DNA from: a virus
Strand: one strand, 5' to 3'
Length of the DNA stretch: 38,428 nucleotides
Virus record (IMG/VR): IMGVR_UViG_3300036832_000667
Coordinates: 1 to 38,428 of that record
Position numbers and translations under genes: made by a program. The first letter of the stretch is position 1. Every line of letters begins with the position of its first letter. The notes beneath the pieces were generated by a model that was given only the letters and a program-made list of their open reading frames with translations, was not told the DNA's origin and did not search any database. Below are positions 835 to 16,763 of this stretch, piece by piece.

Positions 835-2078
835 AGGTGCAGTATTTGGAAATCGTCCAGTTGGTTCCGTACGCATCAAACGCGCGCACCCACTCGGTTG
901 AGCAACTGGCGCAAATAGCGGCGTCCATTCGCGAGTTCGGCTGGACTAACCCGGTGTTGCTTGACGGCGAGAAAGGCGTCATCGCCGGGCACGGACGGCT
1001 ACTGGCGGCGCAGCAGCTCGGGCTGAAGCGAGTGCCATGTATCGAACTGGCGCACCTGACGGATGCGCAGAAGCGCGCCTATGTTATCGCTGATAATCAA
1101 CTGGCGTTAAATGCAGGCTGGGACCTGTCGCTGTTAGCGGGCGAGCTTCAGGAATTGAAGGCCGAAGATTTCGATTTAAATCTGCTCGGCTTCGACACGA
1201 AAGAATTAAGTGAATTACTTACTTACCAAAGCGGCACCGAAGGTCTCACTGATCCCGATGAAGTGCCGGAAACACCGGAGCAGCCGGTCACCAAACCGGG
1301 CGATCTGTGGATTCTCGGCAAGCATCGGCTGCTGTGTGGCGACGCTACGAAGCGGGAGGATGTTGAGCCGTTTCTCAATCATGCAGAAGACGTAGTGGTC
1401 ATCACAGATCCTCCATATGGCGTCAACATTGTCAAAATAAAAACCGAGGCAACTAAGGGCGTCGGCGGCGGCGGTAAACCATATGGCAAAAGAGGCGTCG
1501 TCGTCGGCGCGAATATTGTGAAGCCCAGTCTTTATGCGCCGGTCATCAACGATGACAGCACCGACACCGCGGAAAACTTTTATCGATGTGCGCTCACTTG
1601 CAATCTGTCAAATCTCATCATCTTCGGTGGCAACTATTTCACTCATTTCCTCCCGCCTTCGCCGTGTTGGATTATTTGGGATAAACAAAACAGCGGCAAT
1701 TTTGCTCCGGTTGAAATTGCGTGGACTTCTTACAAGCGAGGCTCCAAGCTTTATCAGTGGACGTGGAATGGATTGTCACGGGCTGGTGAACGAAAGACAG
1801 AGTTGATGCAACGAGTCCATCCGACACAAAAGCCGGTCGGACTATTTGAAAAGATTTTTGTCGACTTTCCGTTTAAGAATTGCTTCGATGGGTTTCTTGG
1901 TTCCGGTTCAACGCTCATCGCCTGCGAAAAGACAGCACGCACCTGCTTTGGCATGGAACTCGCACCTGCCTACTGCGACGTGATCGTCACGCGCTGGCAA
2001 AACTTCACCGGAAACAAAGCCGTCCTCGACGGCACAAAACAAACCTTTGACCAAATCTCCCAAAAACGCGCCGCCTAG
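810..2078 (+). CDS. ParB-like domain fused to DNA (N4/N6) methyltransferase
   Basis: 422 residues from ATG 810. Residues about 8-100 are a ParB/Srx-type domain (NPVLLDGEKGVIAGHGRLLAA with the conserved GHGR). The C-terminal two thirds is an adenine/cytosine-N4 methyltransferase: DPPYG at about 200-204, the HPTQKP element at about 337 and the SAM-binding FLGSGST at about 362. Catalytic motif before SAM motif is the beta-class order. This architecture is frequent next to phage terminase genes and is thought to modify phage DNA, perhaps at packaging or for protection from restriction. The frame stays open back to 693, but 810 is preferred because the N-terminal extension is Arg/Ser-rich and overlaps the gene upstream. 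It overlaps the next gene by 32 nt. Confidence 0.9.
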   Translation: MAPEETRLKVQYLEIVQLVPYASNARTHSVEQLAQIAASIREFGWTNPVLLDGEKGVIAGHGRLLAAQQLGLKRVPCIELAHLTDAQKRAYVIADNQLALNAGWDLSLLAGELQELKAEDFDLNLLGFDTKELSELLTYQSGTEGLTDPDEVPETPEQPVTKPGDLWILGKHRLLCGDATKREDVEPFLNHAEDVVVITDPPYGVNIVKIKTEATKGVGGGGKPYGKRGVVVGANIVKPSLYAPVINDDSTDTAENFYRCALTCNLSNLIIFGGNYFTHFLPPSPCWIIWDKQNSGNFAPVEIAWTSYKRGSKLYQWTWNGLSRAGERKTELMQRVHPTQKPVGLFEKIFVDFPFKNCFDGFLGSGSTLIACEKTARTCFGMELAPAYCDVIVTRWQNFTGNKAVLDGTKQTFDQISQKRAA

Positions 2079-2565
2079 CAAGCGCATCGACTGGCCGGCA
2101 GCGAAGACTGAATACATTAACAATGCTGCGCTGACCTATGCCGACATCGCGAAAAAGTATGGCACAAAACTAGGCAGTGTTCAAGCGCAGGCTGCTACTA
2201 ACAACTGGACGGAAGCGCGCGCCGCCCGTTCGAAGCTTTTACAACAAAGGGCAACAGAGAAATCGCTAACGACCGCGGTTGACGAACTTGCCAAGTACAA
2301 CGAGCAGGATCTGCTCGCCGCAAAAGCCCTGCGCTCATTGATCGCTAAGCGAATGCACGAGGCGCAGCAGACGCGGATTGACGCCAGAGACTTGCGCTCT
2401 TTGGCTGGCGCGATGGAAAGCGTACAGCGCGTGGCGCGCCTGGCGCTCGGCGCATCAACCGAGAACGCCGATACGCGAATTTCGGAAGCCGACCGGCTGA
2501 CGCCGGAAGAACGGCGCGAGCGTATCCGGCAATTGCACGCCGAATTGTTTCCGACCGTCCAGTGA
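2047..2565 (+). CDS. Terminase small subunit (probable)
   Basis: 172 residues from TTG 2047, placed directly before the large terminase and overlapping it by 4 nt. Residues about 24-55 form a helix-turn-helix (ALTYADIAKKYGTKLGSVQA) like that of small terminase DNA-recognition domains. The middle is a long helix with an Arg-rich face (RIDARDLRSLAGAMESVQRVARLAL), consistent with oligomerisation, and the C-terminus (LTPEERRERIRQLHAEL) is also helical. The role would be to recognise the packaging site and regulate the large subunit. The assignment rests on position, the HTH and length; the sequence is not diagnostic on its own. The TTG start has no strong ribosome site. Confidence 0.72.
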   Translation: MTKSPKNAPPSKRIDWPAAKTEYINNAALTYADIAKKYGTKLGSVQAQAATNNWTEARAARSKLLQQRATEKSLTTAVDELAKYNEQDLLAAKALRSLIAKRMHEAQQTRIDARDLRSLAGAMESVQRVARLALGASTENADTRISEADRLTPEERRERIRQLHAELFPTVQ

Positions 2566-3296
2566 CCAATGCCGCAACGCTGGAGCGATACGAAGACCTG
2601 CTGGAAGCTGAAAAGCGCTGGCGCCGCTTTACGAAGATTGCCAGCTATTATCCGGATACTGGTCCGTTACGGCGTTCCGCTTACGCGAAGCATCTGGATT
2701 TCTTCGCGCTTGGCAAGGATTATCGCGAACGAATGTTCATGGCCGCGAACCGAAGCGGAAAGACCACTGTCGGCTGCTACGAAACCGTCCTGCATGCAAC
2801 CGGTCGTTACGATCAGTACGCGGCGTGGTGGCCGGGAAAGCGCTTCGACCATCCGGTATCGGTGATCGTCGCTGGCGATACGAACTTGACGACACGCGAC
2901 ATTTTGCAAGCGAAGCTGTTCGGCAAGCTGACGCGGCAGATCGGCGATTCACTATCGGATGCGGTCGGCTTAGGAACGGCGATGATGCCGCGCGACGCGA
3001 TCATACGCGCGATACCAAGGCGCGGCGCGGAAAACGCTTTCGAAGAGGTGACCATACGGCACATCAGCGGCGGGACATCGATTATCAAGCTTCGATCGTT
3101 CGAGCAAGGCCAAGAAGCGTTTCAAGGGACCGAAGAAGACTTGATCTGGCTGGATGAAAGCTTTCCGGCTGAAATCTATTCGGAAGCCGTCACGCGCCTG
3201 ATGACGACGCGCGGGCACTTGCTGATGACTTTCACGCCAATTTACGGCGTGACGCCGATCATCCGCGAGTTCATGGACAAGGCGCATCGCGGCTAG
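2562..3296 (+). CDS. terL: Terminase large subunit, N-terminal ATPase half (split gene)
   Basis: 244 residues. It holds the packaging motor: a Walker A-type loop AANRSGKT at 61-68, Walker B LIWLDE at 194-199 with the catalytic Glu, and the coupling element TFTP at about 223. It ends at TAG 3294-3296 straight after FMDKAHRG, exactly where the linker to the nuclease should begin. The nuclease half resumes at 3974 in another frame. Together the halves make about 484 residues, the usual TerL length, so nothing essential seems lost. Both halves keep their motifs, arguing against decay; either the two polypeptides assemble or the intervening RNA is removed. Confidence 0.92.
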   Translation: MTNAATLERYEDLLEAEKRWRRFTKIASYYPDTGPLRRSAYAKHLDFFALGKDYRERMFMAANRSGKTTVGCYETVLHATGRYDQYAAWWPGKRFDHPVSVIVAGDTNLTTRDILQAKLFGKLTRQIGDSLSDAVGLGTAMMPRDAIIRAIPRRGAENAFEEVTIRHISGGTSIIKLRSFEQGQEAFQGTEEDLIWLDESFPAEIYSEAVTRLMTTRGHLLMTFTPIYGVTPIIREFMDKAHRG

Positions 3297-3298
3297 GT

Positions 3299-3577
3299 AT
3301 GTGGCGAAAACTGGGCTGTTTCTCGTGGCCCCCAAAAGGCTGTTACCCCTTTGAAGACTGGTCTGAGTTGCCAGAGTTTCCGGTGCGACCGGTGGCTATT
3401 CCTTTAAGTGCATTTAGGCTTGATTGGCGTGATCCGCGGTATTTCAACAATCGCGACGATAGGCCGCATCATTTCAATGCACATGGGTCGGAATATATGC
3501 ACGGGCCTGAACAGCTCGCCGAGGAACGGGCAGCGCAGGCGCAGTTCCTGGCAGCAAAACAAGCCAAGCACCACTAA
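3299..3577 (+). CDS. Hypothetical protein inside the terL interruption
   Basis: 92 residues beginning 2 nt after the TerL ATPase stop. It is rich in Trp, Pro and aromatic residues (W at 2, 10, 21, 43; a DWRDPRYF segment), with a His-rich middle (DDRPHHFNAHG) and an Ala/Gln-rich helical end. The composition looks like real protein, not a shadow. I see no HNH, GIY-YIG or LAGLIDADG motif, so it is not an obvious homing endonuclease. The ATG lies within the TAGGTAT direct repeat, and the AGG there is too close to be a good ribosome site. Function unknown. Confidence 0.55.
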   Translation: MWRKLGCFSWPPKGCYPFEDWSELPEFPVRPVAIPLSAFRLDWRDPRYFNNRDDRPHHFNAHGSEYMHGPEQLAEERAAQAQFLAAKQAKHH

Positions 3578-3583
3578 AGCAAA

Positions 3584-3694
3584 ATGAACTGGATACTGCC
3601 CTGGCCGGACCCGGATTCGGATCGGCCGCCGCTTGATTGCGATGAAGTGCAAGCAAAACCGGCAGGGTCGCTCGCGAAGAAAAAAGGGCCATGA
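3584..3694 (+). CDS. 36-residue hypothetical peptide inside the terL interruption
   Basis: A short ORF (starts MNWILPWPDPDSDRPPLD, ends KKKGP) that begins 6 nt after the previous stop. The Trp/Pro/Asp-rich N-terminus and Lys-rich end resemble the style of the 92-residue neighbour, which supports it being translated. No known domain. A further frame opens at its ATGA stop (3691) but runs into the hairpin repeats and looks non-coding. Confidence 0.4.
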   Translation: MNWILPWPDPDSDRPPLDCDEVQAKPAGSLAKKKGP

Positions 3695-3812
3695 TATCTT
3701 CAGCTTGCGCTACCGTTATGCGCAGCCGCATCAAGTGCCGGAACGCTTGCCGACCGGTCGCTCGCGGGAAGGCCGCTAAACACTGGGGATATATGCCGTT
3801 TACGGCAACGGC

Positions 3813-3922
3813 CCTCGGAGCAGTCAAGATCTTTGATATCTGCTATGGACACTCTACACCTGCCAAGCGGACTGCTCATTCGCAACCTCGGAGCAGTCAA
3901 GATCTTTGATATCTGCTACGGA
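3813..3922 (+). repeat. Two 37-bp direct repeats, each able to form a hairpin
   Basis: Copies at 3813-3849 and 3886-3922 differ at a single base (T/C near the end) and are spaced 73 nt apart. Each contains AGCAG ... CTGCT arms around an inner TCAAGATCTTTGA inverted repeat, so each RNA copy can fold. Near-identity in a region with no clear gene, just before the second terL half, suggests a recent duplication or a conserved RNA/DNA-binding element rather than coding sequence. Confidence 0.8.
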
Positions 3923-3973
3923 GATCACGCTCACGGCACGGGCGGCGGATGTATGCGGATTTAGGTATTCAGC

Positions 3974-4696
3974 ATGAGCCGCGCGCTGGTAACCGCAACC
4001 TGGGACGATACGCCGCATCTCCCGGATGATGCGAAGGCCGATCTGATCGCTTCGTATCTGCCGCATGAAATCGAAGCGCGTACGCTCGGCATCCCGTCGC
4101 TGGGCCACGGTGCGGTGTATCCGCTGGCGCAGAGCGATTATACGTGCGACCCATTTCCGGTTCCGGCGCATTTCAAGCGCGCCTTCGGCCTGGATATCGG
4201 CTGGAACTGGACCGCCGCGGTTTGGATGGCCTTCGACCTCGAGAACGATCAGGACTTCGTGTATCGCGACTATCAGCGCGAACAAGCGCCGCCGGATGTT
4301 CACGTTTCGGCGATTAAAGCCGCCGGCGACTGGATTCCGGGCTGCATCGATCCGGCGGCAAAACAGCGATCGCAAGTCGATGGCCGCAGTTTACTGGTCG
4401 AATACGAAGCGCTGGGATTGCGGCTGGCGTTAGCCGACAATTCGGTCGACGCCGGCGTCCTACGCGTCTATCAGCGCATGGCCTCCGGCAAGCTGAAGAT
4501 CTTCCGGACCTGTACGAAGTTGCTGGAAGATCTGCGCTTCTATCATCGCGACATAACCGGTCGAATCGTGAAAGACCGCGACCACCTGCCGGATGCGCTT
4601 CGTTATGTGAGCATGTCGGGTCGCAACGCCGCGCGCTGGAAGCCGGTGCCGAAGGTCGCAACGAACGGCGCGCCGGCAACCTGGGCCTGGGGCTGA
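3974..4696 (+). CDS. terL: Terminase large subunit, C-terminal nuclease half (split gene)
   Basis: 240 residues. It opens with RALVTATWDDTPHL and GIPSLGHGAVYP, the segment that normally follows the ATPase linker in TerL. It then shows the RNase H-like nuclease: first acidic residue in FGLDIGWNWTAA (D74), a middle site around ADNSVDA (D155) and the terminal DHLPDALRY (D203/D207). This domain cuts concatemeric DNA at packaging. ATG 3974 could be a genuine start (a weak AGG lies 8-9 nt upstream), or the codon may be internal to a spliced product; an in-frame TAG at 3962 bounds any extension. Confidence 0.92.
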   Translation: MSRALVTATWDDTPHLPDDAKADLIASYLPHEIEARTLGIPSLGHGAVYPLAQSDYTCDPFPVPAHFKRAFGLDIGWNWTAAVWMAFDLENDQDFVYRDYQREQAPPDVHVSAIKAAGDWIPGCIDPAAKQRSQVDGRSLLVEYEALGLRLALADNSVDAGVLRVYQRMASGKLKIFRTCTKLLEDLRFYHRDITGRIVKDRDHLPDALRYVSMSGRNAARWKPVPKVATNGAPATWAWG

Positions 4697-6083: not shown

Positions 6084-8198
6084 GTGCGACCCGCGGGGTG
6101 CGACTTAGCCATATTTACCCAGACGCAGGTGAGTAATTTTGTTTGCCGCGCCATCGCAGCGTTCGCTTTGGTCAGTCTTGGCTACGCGGCTGCTCCAGCA
6201 ACCCCTACGTTTAGCGTGCCAGAAGGATCGTATACAACAACTCAGAACGTCGGCATCAGCACAACGACTCCCGGCGCGTCGATCTATTACACGATCAACG
6301 GGATTGCGCCGACAACGTCCTCCTATCTCTATACGGCGCCAGTTACTATTCCGATCACGACCAAGCTCCGGGCGATTGCATCGTTGTCGGGGATGTCGAG
6401 CGGCAATCTTACGGTTGTTTATACGATTGTCCCGGCCGCCGATCCGACATTCGATCCACCTGCCGCGCTCTATACGGGCAATCAGCTTGCCGTGATTACA
6501 TCGACGACTTCGGGTGCAGTTATTTACTACACGACGAATGGGCTTGCGCCCACCACGACTTCACCGCGGTATGTGGCACCCGTTCCCATCACGACTGACA
6601 CGAAGCTGCGAGCCATTGCGCAGTATCCGAATGGGCCACCGAGCGCAGTAGTGACGGGCCAGTATTTGATTCGACAATCGCCAACTCCGGTTAAGACACC
6701 GAACGCAGCGACAACCTTCTTCGGCCTCGTTGTCCACAATCTGCTGACTGGGACTCCCTGGCCTGCGGTGTCTATCGGGACGCTGCGGCTTTGGGACACC
6801 AAAACGCTTTGGCGCGATCTTAATCCGGCTGTCGGTCAGTACACGTTCTCGACTCTGGACAAGTTGTTGGCCCTAGCGAAAACGAATAATGCGCAGGTGT
6901 ATTACACGTTCGGCGGCACGCCGCCGTGGGCGCTGGCAGCGAACGTGCCGATCACGTCGATCGGCAGATCAGCCGGAGTGGTGACGGTGACAACCGCCTC
7001 GGCGCACGGCCTGTACTATAACTCGGCCCAACCCGCCAATTCGCAATCGCCAGCGCTGATAGCAGGGGTTGCTGATGCTAGCTTTAACGGCACGTTTTAC
7101 ATCACCGCCACGCCGTCGTTCAATACGCTCACTTACGCGCAAACCGGCAGTGACGCGAAATCATCTGCGGGCACCTTCAGCGCAGTGTGTAGCGGTGCCT
7201 ATGTGCCGGGTGCCTGTGCGGAAGCACCTGTCAGCCTTGGCTCCTGGGACCAATTCATCACGCAACTGGTTATTCATGTGGGCACTGCGATTCCGTACTG
7301 GGGCATGTGGAACGAAGCGAACATCCCGGACTTCTGGAAGGGCGACCCCGCGATGATGGTGACGATGGTGGATGATGCACGCCGCATCATTAAATCGTCG
7401 AATTTAAATGCTGCGATTATGTCGCCCAGCGTTTCGGGCGTTTACGAGACACCAAATCTGTGCAACTCAAGCCCATCGTATTGTGGCGCCGCGTGGCTAG
7501 ACCAATGGCTAAAGCTGGGCGGCAAGGACTTCATCGACGGTGTAGCCTTTCACGCTTATCCGGTGAATGGGAAGCAGCCGGAGAAAATCCAAGGCGCGAC
7601 CAATCTGATGCAAAGCACGCTCGCGAACAACGGATTAGGAAACTTGCCGCTTTGGGACACCGAGTCAAGTTGGGGCGATAACAGTTCGATTGCCGTTGCC
7701 GATCAACCGGCCTGGGTAGCGCGGCATTTGCTGCTTGCGCAATCGATGGGTGTACAGCGCGTTCTTTGGTATTCCTACGACAGCGCGACGTGGGGCAATC
7801 TGTGGACCTCGGCAGGGCTTACTGCGGGTGGCGTGGCGTATCAGCAAGTCGAGCAATGGATTAGCGGCACGACGCTCAGTGCTCCGTGTGCGCAGACCGC
7901 TGCTGATGCAACGACGTTCGTTTGCGGCTACACGCGCGTAACCCGGCGCCGCGGAGGCGGGGATTGTGATTGCAAGGACGATGACAGTCCGGAAGCACGC
8001 TCAGGAACCTATTCGGCGCAGGCGATCTGGAATACAGCCGGGTCGAAGGCGTGGACGGTCGATTCCAAATACATTCAGTACCGGGATGTCGCCGGGAAGG
8101 TGCATTCGATCAGCGGCGGAACGGTAACGATTTCGACCAGCCCGATTCTGGTGGAGACTGGCACGGTAGGACGTGGAGCAGGAAAAGGGAATAACTGA
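6084..8198 (+). CDS. Secreted-looking glycoside hydrolase with two chitobiase-type C-terminal repeats (tailspike or moron)
   Basis: 704 residues from GTG 6084; GTG 6129 would leave a tidy signal-peptide-like N-terminus (CRAIAAFALVSLGYAAA). Two repeats of about 75 residues (roughly 38-110 and 118-195) match the CHB_HEX_C type, each with YYTxNGxAPTT and KLRAIA. A TIM-barrel-like glycosidase follows, with WNEAN (E411, likely acid/base) and WDTESSWG (E527, likely nucleophile), the spacing typical of clan GH-A. An Asp/Cys-rich insertion (GGGDCDCKDDD) lies near the C-terminus. It could be a virion depolymerase that digests host surface glycan, or an exported enzyme made by lysogens. Its place between terL and portal is unusual. 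Confidence 0.8.
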   Translation: MRPAGCDLAIFTQTQVSNFVCRAIAAFALVSLGYAAAPATPTFSVPEGSYTTTQNVGISTTTPGASIYYTINGIAPTTSSYLYTAPVTIPITTKLRAIASLSGMSSGNLTVVYTIVPAADPTFDPPAALYTGNQLAVITSTTSGAVIYYTTNGLAPTTTSPRYVAPVPITTDTKLRAIAQYPNGPPSAVVTGQYLIRQSPTPVKTPNAATTFFGLVVHNLLTGTPWPAVSIGTLRLWDTKTLWRDLNPAVGQYTFSTLDKLLALAKTNNAQVYYTFGGTPPWALAANVPITSIGRSAGVVTVTTASAHGLYYNSAQPANSQSPALIAGVADASFNGTFYITATPSFNTLTYAQTGSDAKSSAGTFSAVCSGAYVPGACAEAPVSLGSWDQFITQLVIHVGTAIPYWGMWNEANIPDFWKGDPAMMVTMVDDARRIIKSSNLNAAIMSPSVSGVYETPNLCNSSPSYCGAAWLDQWLKLGGKDFIDGVAFHAYPVNGKQPEKIQGATNLMQSTLANNGLGNLPLWDTESSWGDNSSIAVADQPAWVARHLLLAQSMGVQRVLWYSYDSATWGNLWTSAGLTAGGVAYQQVEQWISGTTLSAPCAQTAADATTFVCGYTRVTRRRGGGDCDCKDDDSPEARSGTYSAQAIWNTAGSKAWTVDSKYIQYRDVAGKVHSISGGTVTISTSPILVETGTVGRGAGKGNN

Positions 8199-9939
8199 GG
8201 CTGACTTCCTCGAGTGGTTCCAGCGACGTTATCGCGCTTATGTCGGGCGATTGGTAATGCGGTATTACCCTCATATCGAGTTTGATGATGTTCTGCAGGA
8301 GTCTACACTCGCCATGCTACGGGCATTTCGCCGCCAGAAGATCCGTGATCCCGAACCCTATGCCCGTCGAGTTATTCGCAACATTGTGGGCCAGTTCGTG
8401 GAGAAGCGTTTTCATCCCGAGATGCTTCGGGTCCGTGAGCCCGTAGAGGAGCTTGAGTATTACTTGCCGGATCCCGCTGTTCCCATCGAGGACCGGATCT
8501 ATACCGAGGAGCGCAACCAATTGGCGCGGGAGTTCATTGTCCGTGAAAGTGCAGTGCTGTCGTGCGGCACGCGCAAAGAGCAGGTTGGTATCGGATTGAT
8601 CGAACAGTCGTTCCACGACGGCAAGCCGCCGTTTAAGCCAAGCCATTCACGCCGCTGTGCGCGGAGTACAACTCTCTACAAACTGATTGACCGGGTGCGG
8701 AGCGTGGGACCGATGCGATTGTTGATAGTAAGTTGTTTTGCCGCGATGTTGGTGTATGGGCATCCTCGAAAGACCAAAGCGGCGCCTACTCCAGAGGCAG
8801 CCGTTTACGTTGAGCAGTTCGGCGCGGTCTCTGACGGTTATACGGATAACAGCGCAGCGCTTGCGACTGCGTTTACCTATGCGACGAATCACCAAGGCAC
8901 TCGGCTGATGTTCACCTGCGCGGCTGCGCAGAAGTACTGCACCTATGTAGTCAAAAGCCCGGTTACCTTTCCGACGAAAACGACGATTGAATCCATGCAC
9001 TCGACTGCGAGCATTCTTTACGCCCCATCGGCCCAGCCGGCGGTTATCCCGCAAGCGGCCTTTCAGATCACCGGAGGCGGCTACACCACGGTAAAAAATA
9101 TCGGCCTCAAGACGAGCTCCAACTACCCGCCGCGCACCATCATGTTTCTGGCACGGCAGAACGGCGTGGCTGGAAATAATATTTTCGATTCTGTGATCAT
9201 CCAGGGCTATGCGACCACGGCAGCCATCTATTCAATTTCGAGCGAGGTGAACACCTGGCACAAGTTGCACGTGGAACTCGACGGCGGTGGCGCACTGTAT
9301 GGCTTCTACACTTCGGGTGCCGATGATCTGCATATTTGTTCACCGGCCTGCGGCCAGAGCAGCAACCTGTCGCTGTTCATGTCGGACTATCAGGTGCTCG
9401 GCTACGTGGGCGTGACTCCGCCGTTCATCGCGATCGCGGATGCGCTCGGTGGCGGCACCGGTGATCATTACTACCGCAACGGATACATCGCGCTCAATCA
9501 CAACGTCAAGTCGATCGGCGTCGAACTGATCAGCGGCAACTCTACACAAGGCGGGCCGAACACGGTGTTTCATTTGTCAGACACGCGTACCGAGAACGGC
9601 GGCTATGGATTGTACTTCAAGAAGGGCGCGCAGAACACTATTCACCACGTCAACATCGAGGGCTACACTTTCGACTCGAACGAAGGCGGCACCAGTCAGT
9701 TCTTCGCTTACGGCGATAACGGATTGACGCTGGCCGAGTGCCATATGCGCGGCAACGTCGGCGAGACAAACGGGCCGACGGCGGCCATGTCCATAGACTC
9801 TCTAACCTCGTCGCAGCTCAGCGAAAACTATGGGCCGATTACGGTACGTACGCTGGCCTCCGGCAACGTGCTAATGGGCGCCGGCAAGACGACGTTTACT
9901 CTGCCAACGGCAAACAATACCGTTATTACGCCTCAGTGA
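8173..9939 (+). CDS. Sigma-70-like N-terminal domain continuous with a pectate-lyase-fold tailspike
   Basis: One open frame of 588 residues. Residues 1-85 resemble sigma-70 region 2 (FDDVLQESTLAMLRAF, then PEPYARRVIRNIVGQFVEKR). Residues about 115-178 could be a region 4-like HTH (ARSTTLYKLIDRVRS). At residue 181 a new ATG (8713) begins a signal-peptide-like stretch (RLLIVSCFAAMLVYG). From about 210 on there is a right-handed beta-helix enzyme opening with FGAVSDGYTDNSAAL, as in pectate-lyase-type tailspikes. There is no stop between the parts. The second part may be translated separately from 8713, where GGAG and GGGA lie just upstream. Its start overlaps the previous gene by 26 nt. Confidence 0.72.
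   Translation: MEQEKGITEADFLEWFQRRYRAYVGRLVMRYYPHIEFDDVLQESTLAMLRAFRRQKIRDPEPYARRVIRNIVGQFVEKRFHPEMLRVREPVEELEYYLPDPAVPIEDRIYTEERNQLAREFIVRESAVLSCGTRKEQVGIGLIEQSFHDGKPPFKPSHSRRCARSTTLYKLIDRVRSVGPMRLLIVSCFAAMLVYGHPRKTKAAPTPEAAVYVEQFGAVSDGYTDNSAALATAFTYATNHQGTRLMFTCAAAQKYCTYVVKSPVTFPTKTTIESMHSTASILYAPSAQPAVIPQAAFQITGGGYTTVKNIGLKTSSNYPPRTIMFLARQNGVAGNNIFDSVIIQGYATTAAIYSISSEVNTWHKLHVELDGGGALYGFYTSGADDLHICSPACGQSSNLSLFMSDYQVLGYVGVTPPFIAIADALGGGTGDHYYRNGYIALNHNVKSIGVELISGNSTQGGPNTVFHLSDTRTENGGYGLYFKKGAQNTIHHVNIEGYTFDSNEGGTSQFFAYGDNGLTLAECHMRGNVGETNGPTAAMSIDSLTSSQLSENYGPITVRTLASGNVLMGAGKTTFTLPTANNTVITPQ
8700..8715 (+). promoter_or_regulatory. Possible internal ribosome site and start (ATG 8713) for the beta-helix protein
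   Basis: GGAGCGTGGGACCG precedes ATG 8713, giving GGAG about 9 nt and GGGA about 3 nt upstream. Translation from here would give a 408-residue protein with its own signal-peptide-like N-terminus, whereas an internal hydrophobic signal in the middle of a fused protein would make little sense. Either the sigma-like gene lost its stop or the two proteins share the frame. Confidence 0.4.
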
Positions 9940-10879: not shown

Positions 10880-13030
10880 ATGCCTGACAACGAAGACTAT
10901 TCATCGCTCGATATCCCGGAACAGGTCCGCCGCTACTGGCACGACGGCATCGAGGCCGAACGCGAGCAGCGTGACGAATTCGACAAGCGCATGCGCTTTC
11001 GCGCCGGCGACCAGTGGGATGCTGCCGACGTCACCGCGCGAGGAAAAGACCGGCCGGCGATCGTCGTCAACCTACTCGAACAGCCGATACAGCAGATCGT
11101 CAATTCGAACCTGAAGAATCATCCCGGCGGTAAAGTTTCGCCCGCGGACGACGCCGCGACGGACCAAGTGGCCGAATACTTCCAGGGGCGCGTGCGGCAT
11201 ATCGAATACGAATCGGACGCGCAGCACGCCTACGGAACCTGTGTCGCCTATATGGCGACTGGCGGCCACGGCCTGGTCGGCTTGACGGTCGACTATATCG
11301 CGCATGATTCGCTCGATCAGGAGCCGCGCATACGCGCGATCGACGATCCGGCGAACTGGGTACTCGGCCCGGCGCAGGAAACGGACGGCAGCGATCGGCG
11401 CTGGGCGATCGGACGATGCCGCTATTCGGTCGAAGAATTCAAACGCCAGTGGCCGGATGCGGCAGTGATCGACGCATCTTGGTTCGGCGCAGATGCGAAG
11501 TACGCCGAATGGGGTGATGGCCGCGATATCTGGATCGCAGAATACTGGCGGCTCGATTATAAGAAGCGCAAGCTGCAGCGTTATTCCGACGGTAGCGAAG
11601 GCTTCGCCGATGACAAAGATTTTCAGGCGTGGCTGCGGCCCGGCGTCGTCGCACTGACCGGCGAAGGCAATTCCGCGATGAAGGATTGTCCGGTGGTTAC
11701 GCAGTACCTGGTCAGCGGCGCGGAAGAACTGGATAAGACGCCATGGCTCGGTTCGCGCATTCCGGTCTATGAAGCGATCGCGAATCAGTTCTACGCCGAC
11801 GGCAAGCGCATCGAAAAATCGGCGATTAGCGACAGCCTTCCGAGCCAGCAGACCTACAACTGTTCCGAATCGTTGAAGCTCGAATCGCTGGTCATGGCGC
11901 CGAAACCGAAATGGCTGGTCTCGACCGAACAAATCGCCGGCCATGAACAAGCATGGAAGACCGCGAACACGTCGAGCGATGCAACGCTGTTCTACAACGG
12001 AACCGTCGATTCCCGCGGCAATCCGGTTCCGCCGCCGGACTGGAAAGTATTTATTCCGCCAATTCAGGCGTTCCAGATGGTTTCGGATGGTGCGAAGCAA
12101 GATGTAAAACTGGAGACCGGCTTTTTCGACGCCGCGCTGGGGAATCTTGATCCGCAGACGCAATCCGGACGCGCGATTACCGCGCTGCAGCAGCAGACCG
12201 GGCTAGGAACGTCGCATTATTCGCAAGCGCTGGCGCATGTCCTGAAGACGCTGTATGAGGACATCATCGAGGTTGACCGGAAGCTAACCGGCAATAAGAT
12301 CCGGTCAATGCGGATCGTGAAGCCGGACGGCAAGCACGATCGTATGCGCGTTAACGATTCCGCGGCTGCCATGCCGTTGCTGGTATCGAGGGGCCGGCTC
12401 GGGGTCATCGTATCGATCGGCCCTACCCAGCAAACGCAACGCGAAGCAGCCAGCGACTTCATCGATTCTGTTGTGCAGTACGATCCGCAAGGCTGGGCGT
12501 TGATCCGCGACATCGGCGCGCGCATCAAGGAGCCGGACTTAGGCCATTACGCCGACGAAATCGCCGACCGGTGGACACCGCCGCAGTTCGCAAACCAGGA
12601 TGAAAACTTGCCGCCCGAAGCGCAGCAAGCGATGGGGATGGTGCAGCAACTACAGCAGGAGAACGGGCAGCTAAAGCAGGCGATCCAGCAAAAGCAAGTC
12701 GAAGAGCAAGGCAAGTATCAGCGCGACATGGCGGTCGAACAGCAGAAGTATGCGACCGAAGAACTTCGCGCGGCGACGCAGATCAGGGTTGCGGAATTAA
12801 ACGCAAAGAACGATCAACTGCTGGCGATGATGGACGCGCGCGTCAAACAGCTCGAGGCGCAATCCGACCGCATGGCCGACATGTTGAAGCTCGGCCACGC
12901 GCAAGCGCACGAACATGCGATGCAGAAGGAAGAGCATTTTCACGAACTAACGAAGCTGGTACAACCGCAGCCGCAACCGCCGCCGAACAGCGTCGATACC
13001 TCAATTGATCCAAACCAACAAGGAGAATAA
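10880..13030 (+). CDS. Portal protein (P22 gp1-like)
   Basis: 716 residues, the length of P22-type portals. The N-terminal region (QRDEFDKRMRFRAGDQWD, then RPAIVVNLLEQPIQQIVN) and the central body match podovirus portals. The last 150 residues are an extended coiled coil (from about QAMGMVQQLQQENGQLKQAIQQK), equivalent to the P22 portal barrel that reaches into the capsid, with a Pro/Gln-rich end. A dodecamer of this protein forms the DNA entry vertex, receives the terminase and later binds the gp4-like adaptor. It is the first gene of the morphogenesis run. Confidence 0.93.
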   Translation: MPDNEDYSSLDIPEQVRRYWHDGIEAEREQRDEFDKRMRFRAGDQWDAADVTARGKDRPAIVVNLLEQPIQQIVNSNLKNHPGGKVSPADDAATDQVAEYFQGRVRHIEYESDAQHAYGTCVAYMATGGHGLVGLTVDYIAHDSLDQEPRIRAIDDPANWVLGPAQETDGSDRRWAIGRCRYSVEEFKRQWPDAAVIDASWFGADAKYAEWGDGRDIWIAEYWRLDYKKRKLQRYSDGSEGFADDKDFQAWLRPGVVALTGEGNSAMKDCPVVTQYLVSGAEELDKTPWLGSRIPVYEAIANQFYADGKRIEKSAISDSLPSQQTYNCSESLKLESLVMAPKPKWLVSTEQIAGHEQAWKTANTSSDATLFYNGTVDSRGNPVPPPDWKVFIPPIQAFQMVSDGAKQDVKLETGFFDAALGNLDPQTQSGRAITALQQQTGLGTSHYSQALAHVLKTLYEDIIEVDRKLTGNKIRSMRIVKPDGKHDRMRVNDSAAAMPLLVSRGRLGVIVSIGPTQQTQREAASDFIDSVVQYDPQGWALIRDIGARIKEPDLGHYADEIADRWTPPQFANQDENLPPEAQQAMGMVQQLQQENGQLKQAIQQKQVEEQGKYQRDMAVEQQKYATEELRAATQIRVAELNAKNDQLLAMMDARVKQLEAQSDRMADMLKLGHAQAHEHAMQKEEHFHELTKLVQPQPQPPPNSVDTSIDPNQQGE

Positions 13031-15997: not shown

Positions 15998-16038
15998 TAT
16001 CTTAACAACATAGATTGACAAAGTGGTAGAATTAAGAA

Positions 16039-16072
16039 GGGTAACCGAATGGTATATCCCATCTGGTTACCC
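16039..16072 (+). repeat. Stem-loop between coat and HNH gene
   Basis: GGGTAACC (16039-16046) pairs perfectly with GGTTACCC (16065-16072); inside, ATGG pairs with CCAT across a 2x2 internal loop. No T-run follows, so it is not a standard terminator. It may attenuate or process the coat message before the endonuclease gene, or hide the GTG at 16023 from ribosomes. Confidence 0.7.
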
Positions 16073-16103
16073 GACACCATTGACGGCCATAGGAGGGCCG
16101 CAC

Positions 16104-16763
16104 ATGGCTATCACCATCATTACCCGTAAGCAGGCGCGGGCACAGGGCTTGTCGCGATACTTTACGGGCAAAGCTTGCAAGCAGGGACATCTCGCGGAGC
16201 GTTCCACAAGGCATGCTGACTGCATAGAATGTGTCCGGTTAAAGAACAGCCGAACCTATTGGCGCGACCCAGCGAGAGATAATGCGCGACGAAAGGCGTC
16301 GCGGCAGGCGAGTCCGGAGAAGGCGAAAGCCTATAGTCGCCTGCAAAGCGCTCAATGGAAACGAAAGAATCCGGAAAAGGTAAATGCTCAAAATCGTGCT
16401 TGGCGCGAGAAATATCCGGAAAAGGTCAGGCTGGTGCGTGAGCGCTGGGACGAAAAACACAAAGACCGGATGCAGAATGATCCGGAGTATGCAGCCAAAG
16501 AAAGAACCAGGAAATTGAAAGAACTTTGGCAGCGCCGCGAAAAAAAGGCTGACCGCCCGTGTCCGGATCATTGCGAAATTTGTGGTGGAAGACCAAAAGA
16601 GATCTGCTTCGATCATTGCCATCAAACCGGAAAATTTCGAGGGTGGCTTTGCCATCAGTGCAATCAAATACTGGGACTCTCGGGCGATTCGCCCGATTTA
16701 TTACGTCAGTTGGCTCATTATTTGGAGAAGCATCTAAGCGCCGGCAACGCTGCGACAGGTTAA
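16104..16763 (+). CDS. HNH endonuclease, recombination endonuclease VII type
   Basis: 219 residues from ATG 16104, chosen because AGGAGGG lies 7 nt upstream; the frame is open from 16023. The N-terminus has a zinc-binding type CKQGHLAERSTRHADCIEC, the middle is a long Lys/Arg-rich helix (about 60-150), and the C-terminus is the EndoVII fold: C157xxC160, the catalytic FDHCH (about 169-173), and C183HQC186. Free-standing enzymes of this type behave as homing or Holliday-junction nucleases. It sits just behind the coat gene, and its last seven residues copy those of the coat protein, which looks like a mark of insertion into the 3' end of that gene. Confidence 0.88.
   Translation: MAITIITRKQARAQGLSRYFTGKACKQGHLAERSTRHADCIECVRLKNSRTYWRDPARDNARRKASRQASPEKAKAYSRLQSAQWKRKNPEKVNAQNRAWREKYPEKVRLVRERWDEKHKDRMQNDPEYAAKERTRKLKELWQRREKKADRPCPDHCEICGGRPKEICFDHCHQTGKFRGWLCHQCNQILGLSGDSPDLLRQLAHYLEKHLSAGNAATG

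Follow-up and report, generated by a model that had tools for sequence, protein, structure and literature searches.

The large terminase (TerL) is usually taken to be a single chain, with a hinge coupling the engine to the nuclease. The window analyzed here, an IMG/VR virus record of 38.4 kb, is that of a P22-like temperate podovirus and raises the question of how such an enzyme operates in two pieces: P22 and nearly all of the isolates listed in our searches have one TerL ORF, whereas the window has two, with cargo between them. An earlier note left open whether these are parts of an intron-containing gene or a two-subunit terminase. From comparative sequence analysis, we propose that the TerL of this phage is very likely encoded by two neighboring genes, whose separate polypeptides would reassemble without a covalent link and jointly form the packaging motor.

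The two TerL ORFs and the position of the break

The upstream ORF, TerL-A (positions 2562 to 3296, plus strand; 244 amino acids), is an ATPase (ASCE) core matching Terminase_6N (E = 6.6e-18), with Walker A (AANRSGKTT), Walker B and catalytic Glu (IWLDES), and motif III (TFTP). It ends in DKAHRG, 18 residues past motif III, at a TAG stop codon (3294 to 3296). Its fold is confidently predicted for this half alone (AlphaFold2, pLDDT 91.7) and, because a PDB sequence search gave no convincing match, was compared by Foldseek, in which the model matches the ATPases of the D6E and P74-26 TerLs. The downstream ORF, TerL-N (3974 to 4696, plus strand; 240 amino acids), starts at ATG 3974 in a different frame from TerL-A. 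Its first 38 residues (3974 to 4087) correspond to the C-terminal part of the ATPase lid (transmission) subdomain, and the remainder (4088 to 4696) to the linker and an RNase H-like headful nuclease matching Terminase_6C (E = 2.4e-8). The P22 gp2 nuclease structure, 4dkw, matches TerL-N in sequence (E = 1.3e-20) and is the top Foldseek match of its model (E = 6e-16, rmsd 1.8), which is again confident on its own (pLDDT 86.5).

The coordinates given in the earlier note all hold; that the ATPase half runs to 3294 to 3296 and the nuclease half resumes at 3974 in another frame can be read directly from the sequence, and its claim that both halves have intact catalytic motifs is borne out by the conserved catalytic positions in TerL-A and TerL-N alike. 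Their Pfam and PHROG identities hold as well. The likeness to P22 gp2 (Terminase_6N plus Terminase_6C) extends over sequence family, TerS-TerL order, catalytic motifs, and nuclease fold. The window has both enzymes typical of P22-like large terminases, a Terminase_6N ATPase (with the two Walker motifs and motif III) and the gp2-type RNase H-like nuclease, but in two ORFs and not in one polypeptide. The C-terminal WAWG of TerL-N is invariant among the window and its closest relatives; a C-terminal W motif was considered as a peculiarity of split proteins and rejected, since fused TerLs end similarly. We also note that phrog_31467, listed in PHROG as of "unknown function," covers the ATPase half nearly end to end (E = 9e-59) and probably groups pieces of TerL, either split or N-terminal.

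In an alignment to the D6E terminase structure, whose chain numbering runs 3 ahead of that in PMC5727402, TerL-N begins near D6E residue 192, and Y213, M216, and R224 of the D6E lid, together with the linker at 230 to 241 (PMC5727402), fall at about TerL-N residues 22, 25, 33, and 39 to 50. Terminase_6N positions 163 to 211 of 215 also match TerL-N residues 4 to 52, albeit weakly (E = 0.016). On the strength of this alignment and the Pfam tail, the break is placed between the ATPase core and the C-terminal lid segment, ∼38 residues before the ATPase-nuclease hinge; TerL-A keeps the core, and TerL-N carries lid, hinge, and nuclease together. Alignment to an intact TerL, as the earlier note had proposed, thus locates the junction and refines its placement of the split "between ATPase and nuclease domains." The distance from motif III to ATWDD is alike in joined split halves (31.7 ± 5.3 amino acids) and one-ORF homologues (27 to 49 amino acids, mostly 28 to 40), so that no residues were lost or gained, and the summed length of split halves equals that of one-ORF homologues.

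The order in the window is operon-like, with TerS, TerL-A, cargo, and TerL-N in succession. The candidate TerS gene (2047 to 2565, plus strand) has weak PHROG matches (phrog_1206, E = 3e-5; phrog_2606; phrog_509), and its TGA stop overlaps the GTG start of TerL-A as GTGA. No promoter or terminator was found between the TerL halves of the window, and a Shine-Dalgarno-like AGGT (3963 to 3966, plus strand) lies 7 nt 5′ of the TerL-N start codon. The window retains genes for the portal (10880 to 13030, 3′ of TerL-N), scaffold, major head protein, connector proteins, and integrase. Positions 693 to 2078, adjoining the 5′ side of TerS, code for a single 461-residue protein with a ParB-N domain and an N6/N4 DNA methylase. 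The interval between TerL-N and the portal holds a 704-residue protein with CHB_HEX_C_1/Fn3_assoc domains (6084 to 8198) and a 588-residue tail-spike-like protein (8173 to 9939), whereas in several relatives the portal follows close behind TerL. An endonuclease VII/HNH-like gene (16023 to 16763) lies immediately 3′ of the major head protein gene.

The junction and its cargo in the closest relatives

The spacer between the halves in the window is 677 nt long, has stops in all three frames, and contains both small ORFs described in the earlier note. The first (3299 to 3577, plus strand; 92 residues) starts 2 nt past the TerL-A stop, and the second (3584 to 3694, plus strand; 36 residues) may not be a gene. 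Neither matches Pfam or PHROG, and no homing endonuclease family is represented among the insert ORFs in these searches. Homologues of the 92-residue ORF (30 to 40% identity) occupy the same junction in three relatives (L001, L002, and L003) and share the C-terminal motif MHxPEQLxEE...AxFLAxK. We detected none away from the TerL junctions of these genomes and the window, and tblastn against phage records with the L003 homologue gave no match. The pN/pS ratio is 0.45 to 0.49, with dS saturated, indicating weak constraint, and five of the nine members of the clade (L005, L017, L018, L019, and L020) lack the ORF at their junction. Given this restriction to three relatives' junctions, the weak constraint, and the absences, it is most likely a passenger.

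Two 37-bp direct repeats (3813 to 3849 and 3886 to 3922, plus strand) lie 73 nt apart in the insert, as the earlier note had reported; they are 97% identical, but as hairpins they are weak singly (z = +0.5 and −1.6), with a z of −2.4 for the pair together. A known element was considered and rejected, as there are only two copies in the window and the 24-bp core is absent from viral_contigs. Both copies of the direct repeat TAGGTAT that was said to bound the insert are likewise present (3294 to 3300 and 3962 to 3968), but they are not evidence of a target-site duplication, being at chance level: when the window was shuffled 100 times, two or more copies occurred in 28 cases, and 34 7-mer repeat pairs are present in such a stretch, with ∼15 expected. 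The second copy provides the AGGT upstream of TerL-N.

The break falls at one and the same residue in the window and in all eight of its nearest viral relatives (71 to 81% identity), which form a clade with it with tree support of 100/100. Six of them (76 to 81% identity) have an ATPase ORF ending in EFMDKAHRG or YRA and a nuclease ORF restarting at M(S/T)RALVTATWDD. The shortest spacers among the eight are −4 and 7 nt, and the longest is 1.95 kb. L004/L018 has no spacer, its stop and start sharing the sequence ATGA, and in L005 a gap of 7 nt is found at the same break; the frame of the nuclease half relative to the ATPase half varies, being +1 in L005 and −1 in L018. The relatives carrying the 92-residue family have spacers of 273 to 304 nt, and the stop of the junction ORF overlaps the nuclease ATG in all three. 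L006/L019 has another small gene, unlike that of the window, and the spacers of L017 and L020 are 348 and 1,948 nt, the latter with a transposase (phrog_4285). The L020 stretch at 7525 to 8653, flanked by the transposase gene and the nuclease half, reads in long open frames as repetitive low-complexity sequence.

The cargo differs even between nearly identical terminases. L005 and L019 are 95 to 99% identical in both halves, yet the former has the 7-nt gap and the latter a 427-nt insert. Similarly, the TerL halves of L001/L015 and L002/L016 are 99 to 100% identical, but their cargo ORFs share only the C-terminal half, which is identical, the N-terminal halves being unrelated; this difference is a domain swap within the cargo gene. 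Homologues split alike but lacking an insert, which the earlier note named as refuting a recent insertion, are at hand in L018 and L005. Comparison across the clade shows that the split is real and is neither a recent insertion nor an intron, and of the two readings left open in the earlier note, the insert-free relatives decide for two subunits.

Both halves are under purifying selection, with dN/dS for the window against six relatives of 0.08 to 0.17 for TerL-A and 0.11 to 0.23 for TerL-N. The window and those relatives' records in which any TerL ATPase was found have one match each, with no second one in the records searched. The identities of the two halves correlate at least as well across split pairs (Pearson 0.82) as across fused pairs (0.68), suggesting that the halves travel together; recombination between them was considered and rejected on these values.

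Split and one-ORF terminases across the P22-like family

Alignment-based searches with each half, followed by HMM classification, yielded 92 rows having both halves, a few of them near-copies; 41 are split and 51 have one ORF, although the 45% that are split is not a family rate, because the sample was chosen by similarity to the split clade. The split or one-ORF state changes at least 11 times on the IQ-TREE tree (10 to 12 in bootstraps), compared with ∼30 for shuffled labels, and nine times when only gaps of >100 nt are counted as split. Strongly supported branches by themselves force three changes; the tree has no fixed root and changes are counted without direction. An origin of the splits in one clade, which we considered, is not supported by these counts. 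One-ORF outgroups include P22, phiEco32, PaP3, and EBPR podovirus 1.

The gap between the two profile matches in the survey ranges from 9 nt to 5.6 kb, and searches of whole records place the halves ∼6.8 kb (L105) and ∼10 kb (L109) apart on the same strand, with other genes between them. Stops and starts overlap in other lineages also (−4 in L041, L063, and L068; −8 in L029 and L085). The spacers contain small unknown genes, a transposase, a tail-fiber gene (tail-fiber-like, in L100), or ∼7 to 10 kb of genes. That of L143 has a virion-structural gene and an endonuclease VII/HNH-like gene just 5′ of the nuclease half, the only endonuclease among the tested cargo ORFs of the relatives. A simple scan finds a clear Shine-Dalgarno sequence at the nuclease start in 12 of 43 cases.

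Matches were obtained in 412 isolate or GenBank phage records, and in the 60 records listed, the match is in one piece, with a few partial. MW202785.1 (Podoviridae sp. ct2G2228, circular) resembles the window in having two adjacent CDSs annotated as "large terminase protein," 133 nt apart, and is known in this respect from its annotation alone; we found no comment or paper on its two-CDS terminase. A split TerL is also present in a named bacterial genome, that of Fulvimarina endophytica (L116), with the second start ∼18 to 35 nt past the stop. Some bacterial cases have decayed, G147 and G240 among them. The G147 prophage (L145, 6185 to 7342, on a 6.27-Mb contig) has a C-terminally truncated nuclease half joined to an endolysin domain in one ORF, which looks like a deletion fusion, and G240 (L144) has a TerL-A-like ATPase half and no nuclease half detectable anywhere in its genome.

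Alternative explanations and a proposed two-polypeptide motor

A self-splicing intron (group I, group II, or unrecognized) of 671 bp interrupting a single terL has precedent in the Jug phages, whose terL genes are split by group I introns and spliced, with metatranscriptome support (PMC12363816), and the arithmetic of the earlier note is right that joining T3294 to T3966 restores the frame. An intron would, however, leave a continuous ORF in an uninterrupted allele, and the insert-free L018 and L005 have the identical stop and start and are still two ORFs, with nothing to splice out. The inserts are moreover unrelated or chimeric between nearly identical halves (L005 versus L019; L015 versus L016), they contain ORFs running into the nuclease ATG, and elsewhere in the family as much as 10 kb separates the halves, a distance at which splicing is implausible. 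The earlier note saw no group I or group II core, in agreement with an Rfam covariance search that gave no match in the window at the gathering score and none in the insert even at E ≤ 10. We consider an intron very unlikely. Programmed frameshifting or stop read-through to give one polypeptide is likewise very unlikely: it would suit those relatives in which the halves overlap by 4 to 8 nt or lie <60 nt apart, but not the 677-nt insert of the window with its stops in every frame, nor the inconsistent nuclease frames of L005 and L018; inspection by eye revealed no slippery site in common, and the distances in L105 and L109 exclude frameshifting there.

Split inteins join fractured phage genes, and one could in principle join these halves after translation, yet there is no room for it in the clade, where TerL-A ends so soon after motif III and TerL-N starts at a conserved strand; both termini consist of conserved terminase residues and not of intein fragments, and the extensions in other lineages are mostly short. 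This we regard as having hardly any likelihood. That the phage is a dead remnant whose terL was broken by insertion is suggested by the truncated nuclease-endolysin fusion of G147 and the lone ATPase half of G240, but conservation of both halves clade-wide, their low dN/dS, and the structural and integrase genes retained in the window make decay decidedly unlikely here. The 92-residue family could alternatively be a third, bridging terminase subunit and not a passenger, given its recurrence at the same junction in four genomes and the overlap of its stop with the nuclease ATG in three of them. Its absence from five junctions, the swap of its N-terminal half between L015 and L016, the weak constraint, and the lack of homologues detected beyond these junctions render this unlikely.

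We return to the two-gene motor as the best explanation. TerL-A would supply the ATPase engine core and TerL-N the C-terminal lid segment, hinge, and headful nuclease, the two being translated separately from one operon across a junction that would behave as an ordinary intergenic gap and receive inserted cargo genes. The most likely route of noncovalent reassembly is that the lid segment of TerL-N docks on the TerL-A core, such that the engine core would be the detached part, lid and nuclease remaining joined. Such reassembly is not to be taken for granted, as severing T4 gp17 in the linker between ATPase and nuclease is reported to preserve both enzyme activities but to abolish DNA translocation (PMC3012670, PMC9958956). 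The laboratory gp17 pair is like that of the window in that two polypeptides span the same protein; in the natural pair, by contrast, a single chain carries lid, hinge, and nuclease, the equivalent of the lid in T4 being the transmission domain (PMC3012670, PMC9958956).

Genes-in-pieces are known in T4-like phages, including Aeh1 nrdA split by mobE, the T4 topoisomerase gene 60 split by mobA, and the 43A/43B polymerase of phages 25 and 44RR; the activity of the divided enzymes in Aeh1 and phage 25 shows that split phage enzymes can work (PMC2988022). The window is similar in that an essential enzyme is divided at the DNA level into two polypeptides, although here reassembly is inferred from sequence. 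The T4-like cases are linked to homing endonucleases or intercistronic sequence, whereas no homing endonuclease is seen in the window, and the TerL split further differs in having changed state many times within the family and in affecting the packaging motor. The terL of the Jug phages is also in pieces in the DNA, but its message is rejoined by splicing (PMC12363816), whereas the window has no intron that we could find and has insert-free split relatives. The DNA polymerase of the OM43 phages MEP401/402, a different enzyme but also an essential one, is encoded by two ORFs flanking a small unknown ORF, and the authors did not decide between an intron and a split gene (PMC10580990). Our literature search, largely of sources outside subscription journals, found no paper on a two-gene large terminase.

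Taken more broadly, these phages probably possess a natural two-polypeptide packaging motor in which the engine is not covalently tied to the transmission, the junction has repeatedly gained cargo, and many switches between split and fused forms have occurred within the P22-like family. The large natural set of TerLs cut ∼38 residues before the hinge makes the covalent connections that the motor needs testable, and it supplies naturally occurring pairs of fragments for reconstitution and structural studies. Split genes will be overlooked or cut in half by annotation pipelines and in TerL-based phylogeny, as phrog_31467 exemplifies.
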